DNA from: Secundilactobacillus similis DSM 23365 = JCM 2765 | GTDB taxonomy: Bacteria; Bacillota; Bacilli; Lactobacillales; Lactobacillaceae | Reading direction: 5' to 3' | Assembly (NCBI RefSeq): GCF_001311075.1 | Contig: NZ_BBAD01000034.1 | Coordinates: 1-32,398 of the forward strand | DNA length: 32,398 nt | In this document: positions 7,782 to 32,398 of the stretch, piece by piece | Layout: each line of letters starts with the position of its first letter | Numbering within the stretch: position 1 is the first letter of the stretch | The notes under the pieces: generated by a model | Database searches by the model: none | Told to the model about the DNA's origin: nothing | Seen by the model: the letters and a program-made list of their open reading frames with translations, nothing else | Program-made: the position numbers and the translations under genes

Positions 7782-7795
7782 GAATTTTACTGGTG

Positions 7796-8115
7796 CTTGT
7801 ATCCAGTGTAAGCATTGAGTGGATTTGGGGTGTAGGCTGTTTGTCATCGCTTCGCTCGCCAAAGCCGTATTGAAAAGCACTCATTGAGGCTACGAAATTC
7901 GGCGCCACTTGAACTGTTATTTCCGGGGTTCTTGAAGTTGTAGGAAGTTGCCAACCACGCGCTTTCTGGTCACCACGCCGAATGGTGCTGCGCGAGGCAG
8001 AAGGTTGCATGTAAGCATGCCCCAGCCAACCTACCAAAACCCGGTAGCTTCGCTGGGGCATGCTTACACTCCACCTTCTAACCGCCTCGCTCCGCACACT
8101 TACGCTGGACACAAG
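7796..8115 (+). repeat. Interspersed structured repeat, copy B (complete, 320 bp)
   Basis: Bounded by CTTGTATCCAGTGTAAG (7796-7812) and CTTACGCTGGACACAAG (8099-8115), imperfect inverted copies of each other. The internal order matches copies A and C: a GCGAAGCG segment, GGCGCCACTT, and CGCCGAATGGTGCTGCGCGAG. The right part is a nested hairpin: GCGAGGC (7992-7998) with GCCTCGC (8084-8090), AGAAGGT (7999-8005) with ACCTTCT (8073-8079), and a perfect 16-bp arm 8011-8026 with 8052-8067. It has no credible gene. It lies between the convergent terminators of atpC and lplA. Confidence 0.9.
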
Positions 8116-8128
8116 CGATAGCAAAACG

Positions 8129-16292: not shown

Positions 16293-16299
16293 TACAAGA

Positions 16300-16411
16300 G
16301 CGTGGAAAGAAGCGGTTAGAGAGTGGAGCCTAAGGTACCCCCGACCAAAAAGCTTGGGCCTGGATTTTTGGTCGGGGTACCTTAGGTGCAACTCTCTGCT
16401 TCTTGGAACGC
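16300..16411 (+). repeat. Long inverted repeat in the metN leader
   Basis: A large hairpin between the T-box terminator and metN. The core is 16329-16351 against 16365-16386 (TACCCCCGACCAAAAA against TTTTTGGTCGGGGTA, one extra C on the left) with a 13-base loop. The stem extends outward with AGAGAGT/ACTCTCT (16318-16324 and 16391-16397), AGAAGC/GCTTCT (16308-16313 and 16398-16403), and GCGT/ACGC. Its ends do not match the TTTGTGTCCAGCG repeat family. After it, 16418-16453 contains a smaller GCCCGG/CCGGGC hairpin just before the metN ribosome site. Confidence 0.85.
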
Positions 16412-16493
16412 GTTTCAGCCCGGTAACAGAAACGAGCAAGTAAAACCCGGGCCTAATATTTTATTAAACGAACGAAGAAGGGGGCAACTTACC

Positions 16494-18204: not shown

Positions 18205-18239
18205 AATTGTTCAACACTATTCTGTGGGAGGAATTAGCT

Positions 18240-19076
18240 ATGAAATTTTCGAAAAAATTATTAGGGATTTTGGGCGTCGCTGCGACGGCCGTTGTATTGG
18301 GTGCCTGTGGTAACAGCAAGTCAAGTGGTTCTAAGACAACTACGATCACCGTTGGGGCTTCAGCAGTTCCTCATGCTGAAATCTTGAAGCACGTGCAACC
18401 ACAATTGAAAAAGGAAGGCGTTAACTTAAAGGTCAAGGTATTCCAAGACTACGTAATGCCTAACAAGGCTTTAGCTGCTAAGGAATTGGATGCCAACTAC
18501 TTCCAACACATCCCATTCTTAGCTGAATGGAACAAGGAAAACAAGGGGAGTTTGGTTAGCGCCGGTGGCGTTCACTTGGAACCAATTTCAGCCTACTCCA
18601 AGAAAGTTAAGAACTTGAAGGACGTTAAGGATGGCGCAACTATTCTGGTTAGTTCAAACGTTTCTGATTACGGTCGGGTATTGACGATCTTGAAAGATGC
18701 CGGTTTGATCAAGATCAAGAAGGGCATTGATATCACTACTGCAACCTTCGCTGATGTCACTTCAAACCCTAAGCACTTGAAGTTCAAGCACAGTTACGAA
18801 CCAAAATTGATGCCAAGTATCTACAAGAACGGTGAAGGCGATGTGGTCTTCATCAACGCCAACTACGCCGTTCAATCAGGTTTGGATCCTCGTAAGGATG
18901 CCATCGTGACTGAAAAGTCGACCTCACCATACGTCAACATCGTTGCTGTACGTAAGGGCGACCAAAAGAAGCCAGCCATCAAGAAGTTGATGAAGGCTTT
19001 GCAATCTAAGAGCACACAAAAGTGGATCTACAACCACTACAAGGGTGCCGTATTGCCTGCTAAGAGTTACAAATAA
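18240..19076 (+). CDS. metQ: Methionine-binding lipoprotein of the ABC transporter
   Basis: Extracellular substrate-binding protein of the NlpA/MetQ family, 278 aa, tethered to the membrane by a lipid on C23. The signal peptide MKFSKKLLGILGVAA ends in the lipobox LGAC (residues 20-23). The mature part starts with a Ser/Gly/Thr linker and continues with TVGASAVPHAEIL and KELDANYFQHIPFL, both typical of the family. GGGAGGAA precedes the ATG at 18240. Last gene of the T-box-controlled unit; a terminator follows 17 bases after the stop. Confidence 0.95.
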   Translation: MKFSKKLLGILGVAATAVVLGACGNSKSSGSKTTTITVGASAVPHAEILKHVQPQLKKEGVNLKVKVFQDYVMPNKALAAKELDANYFQHIPFLAEWNKENKGSLVSAGGVHLEPISAYSKKVKNLKDVKDGATILVSSNVSDYGRVLTILKDAGLIKIKKGIDITTATFADVTSNPKHLKFKHSYEPKLMPSIYKNGEGDVVFINANYAVQSGLDPRKDAIVTEKSTSPYVNIVAVRKGDQKKPAIKKLMKALQSKSTQKWIYNHYKGAVLPAKSYK

Positions 19077-19093
19077 GCTTAAATAAATATGAA

Positions 19094-19130
19094 CGCCGCA
19101 GATTCTGATCTAGGATCTGCGGTGTTTTTT
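19094..19130 (+). terminator. Terminator of metNIQ
   Basis: CGCCGCAGAT (19094-19103) and ATCTGCGGTG form a 10-bp stem (one G-T pair) followed by six T. Element D begins eight bases further on. Confidence 0.93.
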
Positions 19131-19177
19131 GTTGTCGTTTGTGTCCAGCGTAAGCATTCTTGTGTTTAGTTTGTGAA

Positions 19178-19394
19178 GTGAGATTTGTGTGAACTGGCGA
19201 TTCCGGTAAGCGACTAGGTTCCTGCTGTGGGGCCGGTCTGAGCCGAAGAGCGGTCTCAGACCTCAAATGTAAGCCTCGCCAAGCCCCGTGCGAGTCTTAC
19301 ATTTGTCCCCGATAATTGGCGGTTGTTGGAAGACCATCAACAACCACCAATTATCGCGACACAGCATACACCTAGTCGCTTACCTGCATCTCAC
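19178..19394. other. Left branched fold of element D: stem enclosing three hairpins
   Basis: Enclosing stems: GTGAGAT (19178-19184) with ATCTCAC (19388-19394); the perfect 15-bp 19205-19219 with 19370-19384; TGCTGTG (19223-19229) with CACAGCA (19360-19366). Inside are three hairpins: GGTCTGAG (19235) with CTCAGACC (to 19262); AAATGTAAG (19265) with CTTACATTT (to 19304); GATAATTGG (19311) with CCAATTATC (to 19355), extended by GGTTGTTG/CAACAACC. All pairs are nested without conflict. Confidence 0.8.
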
Positions 19395-19623
19395 ATTGCG
19401 CAATTCGGCACTATCGCAGAACATCTCAAAACGCGTTGAACGGTAATGTTATCTCGTCGAATCAGCATGAACGTGACGTCCATCTGATGAAGACCAGCGT
19501 CCCGTAATCGTTGATTCATTACGCTTAATGAACATTAATTACAATCCTTTCTGCAGTTGTCAAGTAATTGTCTAACGTTGCTATCACACAGTTTCGTCAG
19601 CTTCAGAATGTGACAGTCAGCGG

Positions 19624-19870
19624 TTCTGGTTGCCAACAGCGCACCATGTAGCGGGAGGCGGAGGCGCGCGGGGCTCAGCAGTGCCGGTATGACTTAAGCA
19701 GTCGTGCCCCGTGGGGTTCGGGGTGCGAGTGCTTTAGTCATACGCCAGTCCGGAGAGATCCGGCATGGGCGGTTTTTGCCCATTCCTAGCTCGTAGGCTG
19801 GCCACTGCGTTCCAGTCCCCGCATAGCGCCGGAGTCTCCCGCGGCATCTTCCCACTATATAAAACCAGAA
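19624..19870. other. Right branched fold of element D: stem enclosing three hairpins
   Basis: Enclosing stems from the outside in: TTCTGGTT (19624) with AACCAGAA (to 19870); GCGGGAG (19651-19657) with CTCCCGC (19836-19842); GGCGC with GCGCC (19826-19830); GCGGGG (19668-19673) with CCCCGC (19817-19822); GCAGTG (19678-19683) with CACTGC (19803-19808). Inside are three hairpins: GTATGACT with AGTCATAC (19687-19743); CCGGA-GAGA-TCCGG (19750-19763), a GNRA-type tetraloop; ATGGGC with GCCCAT (19765/19783). Confidence 0.8.
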
Positions 19871-19937
19871 TCACTGTACTTCACAAACTAAGAATGCTTA
19901 CGCTGGACACAAGCGTGAGTAAATTTTTAACTGGATG

Positions 19938-19966
19938 TTGACAATTCAAACCGCTACCCTTATAGT
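19938..19966 (+). promoter_or_regulatory. Promoter of the BceAB-like operon
   Basis: TTGACA (19938-19943), a 17-base spacer and TATAGT (19961-19966). It lies 25 bases past the right end of element D and about 50 bases before the first gene. Confidence 0.85.
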
Positions 19967-20001
19967 TAGTTACATAAGTAATTAACCAAGTGAGTAACTA
20001 A
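19966..20001. promoter_or_regulatory. Possible operator just downstream of the -10 box
   Basis: TTACATAAGTAA (19970-19981) is a perfect TTAC-N4-GTAA palindrome lying where the transcript starts, and TTAGTTAC (19966-19973) faces GTAACTAA (19994-20001). Their position suits repressor binding. Which protein binds is unknown; the GntR-family gene at 22648 is the nearest candidate. Confidence 0.45.
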
Positions 20002-20016
20002 ATGGAGGATACAATT

Positions 20017-28239: not shown

Positions 28240-28246
28240 GTTGTCG

Positions 28247-28566
28247 TTTGTGTCCAGCGTAAGGGTTGGTTGGATTTTGGGTGAAGGCTGTTTGTCGTCG
28301 CTTCGCTCGCCAAAGCCGCATGAAAACCAGCACTTTCAGGCTACAAAATTCGGCGCCACTTAAACTGTTATTTCCAGGGTTCCTGTCATTGTAAAAACTT
28401 GTCAACCACGCGCTTTCTGGCCACCACGCCGAATGGTGCTGCGCGAGACTGAGAGCTGCATGCAAGGCGACATCGGTAAACCCGCCAGACCCGGGCGCCT
28501 TCACCGATGTCGCCTTGCACACTGCTCTCAACCCGTCTCGCTCCGCACACTTACGCTGGACACAAA
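28247..28566 (+). repeat. Interspersed structured repeat, copy C (complete, 320 bp)
   Basis: Ends are perfect 17-bp inverted repeats: TTTGTGTCCAGCGTAAG (28247-28263) and CTTACGCTGGACACAAA (28550-28566). Inside, ATTCGGCG (28348-28355) faces CGCCGAAT (28427-28434). The right part is a nested hairpin: GCGAGAC (28443-28449) with GTCTCGC (28535-28541), GAGAGC (28451-28456) with GCTCTC (28524-28529), and a perfect 16-bp arm 28462-28477 with 28503-28518. It lies between the convergent terminators of tag and uspA. No gene is supported. Confidence 0.92.
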
Positions 28567-28587
28567 CGTAAGCAAACAACAGCACAA

Positions 28588-32326: not shown

Positions 32327-32334
32327 TACTGACG

Positions 32335-32398
32335 TTTGTGTCCAGCGACAGCGTGCGAAGTTTGTGAAAATTGGCTTCGTTGGTGCGTTAATCATGGA
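32335..32398 (+). repeat. Start of another interspersed element, copy E (cut by the window edge)
   Basis: TTTGTGTCCAGCG (32335-32347) is identical to the left end of the repeat family and lies nine bases past the DUF1054 stop. The following AGTTTGTGAA recalls the extended terminus of element D rather than copies B and C. GCGAAG/CTTCG forms a short hairpin before the window ends. Confidence 0.65.

Follow-up and report, generated by a model that had tools for sequence, protein, structure and literature searches.

Element D of Secundilactobacillus similis, a gene-free dispersed repeat, and a family of cloverleaf-folding units in the Lactobacillaceae

The structure of element D, an intergenic repeat of Secundilactobacillus similis, is real and conserved, as shown by folding far beyond that of shuffled sequences and by homologues with covariation. 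The left half of D is part of a large family of repeats that is apparently unnamed: no name for it was found in the full-text literature searched, a coverage from which subscription journals were mostly absent. As an explanation we prefer that D is a non-autonomous repeat without genes, acting through folded DNA ends and spread in trans by an enzyme, a proposal for which belief and doubt are about equally balanced. D was analyzed within a window, the whole 32,398-bp stretch of DNA under study, which is one contig of a draft genome (G000; 3.45 Mb in 176 contigs).

Element D, its copies and its sister element

D sits between an NlpA-type lipoprotein gene (18207–19076) and an ABC transporter gene (identified with Pfam). 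Its features and the adjoining terminator are located in the window as follows:

19091–19130 (+): intrinsic terminator of the NlpA-type lipoprotein gene from the terminator scan; its T-tract abuts D
19131–19920 (+): element D with full ends, as compared over the copies in the source genome; encloses the earlier limits 19138–19913
19131–19154 (+): left end of D, GTTGTCG followed by TTTGTGTCCAGCGTAAG; imperfect palindrome with loop TTGTGTCCA
19205–19384 (+): left unit including a 15-bp outer stem (19205–19219 with 19370–19384); predicted fold
19225–19364 (+): left cloverleaf core, closing stem and three hairpins; 161.8 bits with model R1, 105.5 bits with model R2
19235–19262 (+): hairpin H1, interrupted by one bulged T; compensatory change in 3 of 10 pairs, one pair unpaired in 21 of 42 rows
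19264–19305 (+): hairpin H2; compensatory change in 11 of 16 pairs
19311–19355 (+): hairpin H3; compensatory change in 8 of 10 counted pairs
19395–19623 (no strand): spacer between the folds; z-scores of 0.3 (+) and −0.1 (−), no better than shuffles
19624–19870 (−): right fold, at the position where relatives have an inverted partner unit
19897–19920 (−): right end of D, the left end inverted

The common sequence of the ends extends on each side 7 bp beyond the limits set by a preceding sequence-only reading (GTTGTCG from 19131, CGTGAGT to 19920), and each end is a small palindrome centred on TTGTGTCCA. The matching ends described in that reading were recovered, with 16 of 17 terminal bases agreeing between left and right, as were the terminal extensions on both sides, GCATTCTT (left copy at 19154) and TAGTTTGTGAAGT (left at 19167, right at 19878 as the reverse complement). 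It had also rightly taken D to be free of genes, the longest overlapping open reading frame (ORF) encoding 68 amino acids and running out of the element. With terminal inverted repeats and no internal transposase gene D shows two characters of MITEs, which it further resembles in being dispersed and lacking a long ORF, but it differs from them in that neither a convincing target duplication nor, in the stretches read, a parent insertion sequence (IS) was found and in that its units are elaborate junctions.

The whole of D folds with −362.2 kcal/mol on the plus strand (z = −17.2) and −359.2 kcal/mol on the minus strand (z = −14.4), values equalled by none of 20 shuffles on either strand. When the parts were compared with 100 dinucleotide shuffles each, z-scores of −11.8 (+) and −11.0 (−) were obtained for the left fold (19178–19394) and of −7.8 (+) and −6.3 (−) for the right fold (19624–19870). 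The folding signal of D sits in these two folds, with none in the middle. Both had been described as junctions with exactly three hairpins, which holds for the left fold but not for the right one, whose minimum-energy structure has two hairpins on the plus strand and four on the minus strand. The hairpin with a GAGA loop reported for the right fold is disrupted, as judged by eye, in four of the 24 aligned copies (L025, L026, L042, and L055).

A BLAST search of D against its own genome gave at least 99 matches (40 of 234 candidates scored; 39 further stretches were fetched). D-like long matches lie at about 40 places with approximately 80–91% identity among the 40 candidates scored, and no pair of copies with more than 500 aligned columns exceeds 93% identity. 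The end motif YTTGTGTCCAGCG occurs exactly 108 times on the plus and 106 times on the minus strand of this genome, against 0 and 0 for the reversed control. The ends of D are also found in a sister element, S, whose copies, together with the start of a further element, are located in the window as follows (no strand assigned):

1–237: S copy truncated at the contig end, with inverted repeats I1 and I2
7785–8126: further S-like copy; 75% identity over 300 bp with the other S copy
28240–28573: sister element S (319 bp from inner end to inner end); ends of D, different interior
32327–32398: first part of a further element that has this end motif and is interrupted by the contig end

Since both contig ends (1–237 and 32327–32398) lie inside repeat copies, these repeats probably break the assembly. 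S has at least 40 long matches in the genome (40 of 319 candidates scored). The suggestion that D is the larger parent of these 320-bp copies was rejected on interior sequence, as the sequence common to D and S by BLAST is confined to the 16–17-bp ends. Three chimeric loci (L257, L259, and L261) combine a left part of D with a right end of S.

The gene region left of D was matched in all 14 genus mates, whereas D was detected by BLAST in only three of the 14, always partially, in keeping with D being a dispersed copy. S was found in two of the 14, with weak matches. One genus mate, G008, matches the left fold of D only; at four of its loci (L098, L100, L110, and L118) a second structured sequence type (GTAGCAGTGACTAGTCC...) was seen by eye near the first. 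Seven loci of genus mates (L230, L232, L235, L236, L237, L245, and L248) represent the position behind the orthologue of window 18207–19076. This spot is without D and carries a different long nested hairpin instead (by eye), and several of these loci have CCAGA...TATAA and TATA..GGCCGG-like pieces flanking a variable, near-perfect stem. Elsewhere in the window, a stretch at 16297–16419 that contains a 33-nt inverted repeat (16318–16397) has matches of approximately 75–79% at multiple positions in several of the genus mates and no Rfam match at gathering score; it is perhaps a further dispersed structured repeat.

A cloverleaf family in the Lactobacillaceae

For covariation analysis, 42 left-fold sequences from the source genome and G008 were aligned to one structure (alignment A1). 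They were taken from 48 refined units, with L021, L022, L027, L032, L043, and L054 omitted, and three G008 loci yielded no junction in refinement. Of 1821 cells, 96.3% are paired, a percentage that for the closing stem is flattered by the omission of L022, L027, and L032, in which this stem is altered or cut; shifting the structure by 1–3 columns lowers pairing to 29–43%. Changes on both sides were found in 22 of 44 pairs (14.1 in shuffles) and double-change cells numbered 160, compared to 36.8 in shuffles; homologues with covariation, a test proposed in the earlier reading, thus exist. The compensatory changes are confined to the three hairpins, the closing stems (8 pairs) being without any, and further pair types show no excess (39 versus 38.4 shuffled). 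Loop and junction bases of the units are conserved in the alignments, and the junction measures about 100–145 nt.

Two covariance models were built, R1 partly from D copies and R2 without any sequence of the source genome, on the best 150 of 189 units that R1 had found in other genomes (alignment A2). The left fold of D matches both cloverleaf models with the scores listed above. The Rfam library includes the large RNAs GOLLD and ROOL. It gave no match at gathering score in the window, and on 14 related loci searched at E ≤ 5 only a tRNA reached the gathering score. GOLLD, whose name refers to lakes and the Lactobacillales, and ROOL are like D in being large and highly structured; D differs from them in the lack of an Rfam match in its window and in that its signal consists of two folds around an unstructured middle.

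R2 units were detected in 71 of 301 Lactobacillaceae genomes and 11 of 40 genera, leaving 230 genomes without a match, and R1 units in 47 of the 301 genomes and 8 of the 40 genera. Carriers include, by name, Levilactobacillus, Secundilactobacillus, Lactiplantibacillus, and Companilactobacillus. Among 398 genomes drawn from the class the source genome alone matched R2, at least two of the 397 others being Lactobacillaceae, and among 348 genomes drawn from the phylum it alone matched R1. Individual genomes carry (E ≤ 0.001) at least 87 R2 units in the source genome (150 of 503 candidates scored), at least 132 in G008 (150 of 418), and at least 144 in G208 (150 of 595).

In relatives, neighbouring units separated by under 500 bp are predominantly inverted: 49 neighbours are in "+−", six in "++", five in "−−", and none in "−+" order. 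These counts use 188 of the 189 R1 matches (an antisense match on L178 was omitted) and include four duplicate loci (L124 = L188, L133 = L152, L127 = L209, and L131 = L173), after whose removal 47 "+−" pairs remain, and several orthologous sites. Neighbours in "−+" order occur only beyond 800 bp (four below 2000 bp). The 37 "+−" pairs with both flanks called lie between tandem (22), convergent (10), and divergent genes (5) alike, which rejects gene direction as the cause of this pairing and indicates that the order belongs to the element. The layout of D resembles these inverted pairs, with the right fold as the putative partner unit. Its common descent with the unit stays putative because on the minus strand, searched within 1 kb, it scores only 5.2 bits with R1 (E = 0.33) and 8.4 bits with R2 (E = 0.13); over the whole window no match to the right fold was obtained at E ≤ 1. 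An alignment of 24 of its 25 copies (A3; L035 omitted) shows changes on both sides in 11 of 68 predicted pairs.

Genomic placement and signs of mobility

The units are intergenic, with 4 of 146 overlapping an ORF of at least 400 nt, and in 99 of the 146 the 5' side faces the 3' end of a gene. In the source genome, 113 D or S ends of fetched copies were evaluated with genes taken from simple ORF calls (L049 omitted). Where the neighbouring gene points at the element, a T-tract is present at 54 and an abutting hairpin at 47 of 77 ends, compared to 9 and 3 of 25 ends at which the gene is directed away. No gene lies within 300 nt of the remaining 11 ends. Six elements (L025, L027, L028, L062, L083, and L084) have an abutting terminator on either side, the two differing in their stems, for which a single insertion into one T-tract is no explanation. 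No fixed abutment to terminators was seen by eye in the flanks read from other genera.

No convincing target duplication emerged from 46 copies with both flanks, for which all offsets and lengths were compared; the best signal, a 2-base match seen 10 times versus 4.4 expected, is the top of many combinations. Among the absences read, no clean empty site was found. L173 compared with L165 is a deletion remnant, L214 compared with L215 shows a 186-bp indel at which no R1 unit is present, and L177 compared with L227 is a tandem amplification; L199 compared with L201 is the second candidate absence. The tandem array at L177 (3159–4103, against L227), seen in one species, repeats a unit together with its flank; the starts of the final two model matches are separated by 295 bp, and hairpins one and two are missing from an additional copy. 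Sixteen further stretches of the source genome, consisting of D, S, or chimeras, contained no autonomous copy or parent IS with the same ends. Three wide "+−" pairs elsewhere contain ORFs, and the three ORFs scanned had no Pfam transposase domain. D had no match in plasmids and phages, nor did two related stretches in plasmids.

In Levilactobacillus, a unit is spanned by 42 alignments (counted in both directions and irrespective of a unit in the partner) and units are present in both species at 19 site pairs; these sites look old. Among 112 sites, a single Levilactobacillus–Secundilactobacillus pair has both flanks orthologous. Units were observed in orthologous gaps of two genera at L166 (6740–6858) and L212 (4171–4300), where the flanking proteins are approximately 67% identical. 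As the elements have fixed ends and occupy many different unique positions between genes, we infer that an insertion mechanism is required.

Candidate explanations and their meaning

Folded DNA ends served by an enzyme in trans are our first choice, followed by a function as RNA. The left fold belongs to the Lactobacillaceae-wide cloverleaf family, whose members are three-hairpin junctions. Head-to-head pairs of such units, separated by a short spacer, are common in relatives; D has a similar layout, in which the kinship of the right fold is putative. According to the preferred explanation, the folded units and palindromic ends would act as DNA, either as an extruded cruciform or as a single strand, and the inverted pair of ends would be recognized by an enzyme supplied in trans. 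Past spread would have led into tolerant space behind terminators, and selection that acts on the fold, either through mobility or through a function at the individual site, may keep the stems paired. Two ideas came from the sequence-only reading, a large structured RNA and a DNA structure recognized by a transposase. The structure as such was confirmed, one RNA through D is disfavoured, and a DNA structure fits better; since no transposase was found, recognition by an enzyme is something that we infer.

The objection to a single RNA spanning D is twofold: neighbouring units are inverted in relatives, and the mismatch trends in the two folds are weak and opposite, without the excess of G-U on one strand that a single long RNA would produce. 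Residual stem mismatches on the unit strand comprise 28 A-C and 11 G-U in A1, and 180 A-C versus 83 G-U in A2 (116 versus 49 without two outlier pairs). The right fold has 102 G-U versus 8 A-C mismatches in a structure that was predicted with RNA energies. When mismatches were tested strand-symmetrically, using four reference rows per fold, A-C ranged from 15 to 56 versus 5 to 16 G-U in the left fold, and G-U from 34 to 49 versus 10 to 35 A-C in the right fold. The asymmetry is weak and varies with the reference row, and a control of nine tRNAs (seven G-U, one A-C) is too small for calibration. These trends are compatible with DNA or with two outward RNAs.

A reading in which each unit is transcribed, for example as two outward RNAs from the spacer or as an element of mRNA 3' ends, is possible but on balance rather improbable. 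It would account for the strong compensatory change, the conserved loop sequences, the frequent orientation of unit 5' sides towards gene 3' ends, and the fewer in-place changes at stem positions described below. The A-C lean in unit orientation in A2 equals G-U on the opposite strand, and on the plus strand of D the mismatches of the right fold tend to be G-U, as two outward RNAs would give, but the dependence of this asymmetry on the reference row and the small tRNA control weaken the argument. Transcription is further disfavoured by the position of many ends in the source genome directly behind terminators, by the lack of an Rfam match, and by the lack of a promoter-like site inside D, the sole such site in 19050–20010 lying at 19938–19966 (mean of 1.3 in shuffles).

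Orthologous copies allowed the stems to be followed at fixed sites. Differences were counted at 47 of 1619 paired positions and at 74 of 761 unpaired ones over 19 comparisons, which are not all independent; the contrast may be inflated because the unpaired positions include fast loops. Stem positions thus appear to be constrained at their sites, and such constraint suggests a role beyond mobility. This is what a structural mark between genes selected by the host, serving as insulator, terminator aid, or nucleoid-protein site, would lead one to expect, and the intergenic position with a preference for the space behind rather than in front of genes, the presence of units at shared sites in several species of one genus, and the terminators abutting elements in the source genome point in the same direction. 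We nevertheless regard a host mark as unlikely, as positions in the sample compared are generally not kept across genera (the one both-flank pair among 112 sites mentioned above), more than two thirds of the Lactobacillaceae genomes lack a match, and units occur in tandem in one species.

The covariation itself might be mutational in origin if template switching copied one arm onto the other and restored pairing without selection. In 32 D cores double changes are frequent and intermediates few (57 double Watson-Crick cells versus 37 single mismatches), and the outer stems of the units are variable yet well matched (by eye), both as expected from such copying. However, stem positions of orthologous copies change less, not more, than unpaired ones and contain 5 double changes versus 33 single mismatches, and conservation extends to loops and junction bases, which makes this origin quite improbable.

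The least probable of the explanations is a REPIN-like system, in which inverted doublets of palindromes fold in single-stranded DNA and are mobilized by a Y1 tyrosine (RAYT) transposase: REPINs, as described in PMC3116915, share with the D family the inverted doublet around a spacer, the extragenic location in many copies, and the lack of a gene. REPs are short hairpins of 20–40 bp that bear a GTAG or CGTC tag. In size they contrast with the units here, which are far larger junctions with conserved loops, and no Y1 link was seen. Y1 genes (PF01797) are present in six of the eight carriers searched and absent in two, G008 with its many units and G277, and a unit lies within 3–4 kb of only 1 of 13 Y1 loci, when about two would be predicted by chance from the density in G208; a Y1/RAYT link as a general rule was therefore rejected.

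BOX and RUP repeats are not known to share the sequence or fold of the units described here. They belong to other bacteria, and the present units form inverted pairs of junctions. BOX and RUP of Streptococcus pneumoniae are described as tightly folded and regarded as likely non-autonomous mobile elements (PMC3049150), and their many copies in one lineage and tight folds are shared by the units. Returning to folded DNA ends and an enzyme in trans, we raise more tentatively, with doubt clearly outweighing belief, that the family may be a class of DNA without a name so far, mobile now or in the past, with large cloverleaf junctions read by a protein as its termini, which was dispersed by an enzyme, later used by the host, and came to occupy gene borders in many lactobacilli with more than 100 copies per genome. 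The proposed cloverleaf-junction ends would be a bacterial counterpart of T-shaped terminal repeats.

More than 100 copies per genome of a strongly covarying and conserved structure in food bacteria, lacking an Rfam match and, in the literature searched, a name, amount to a sizeable blank in annotation. If the unit is a transposition end, it would be an unusual substrate and point to an as yet undescribed enzyme; if the host maintains it, the unit would represent a new type of gene-border element. With models such as R1 and R2 the units can be counted, and tested in food-grade laboratory strains.
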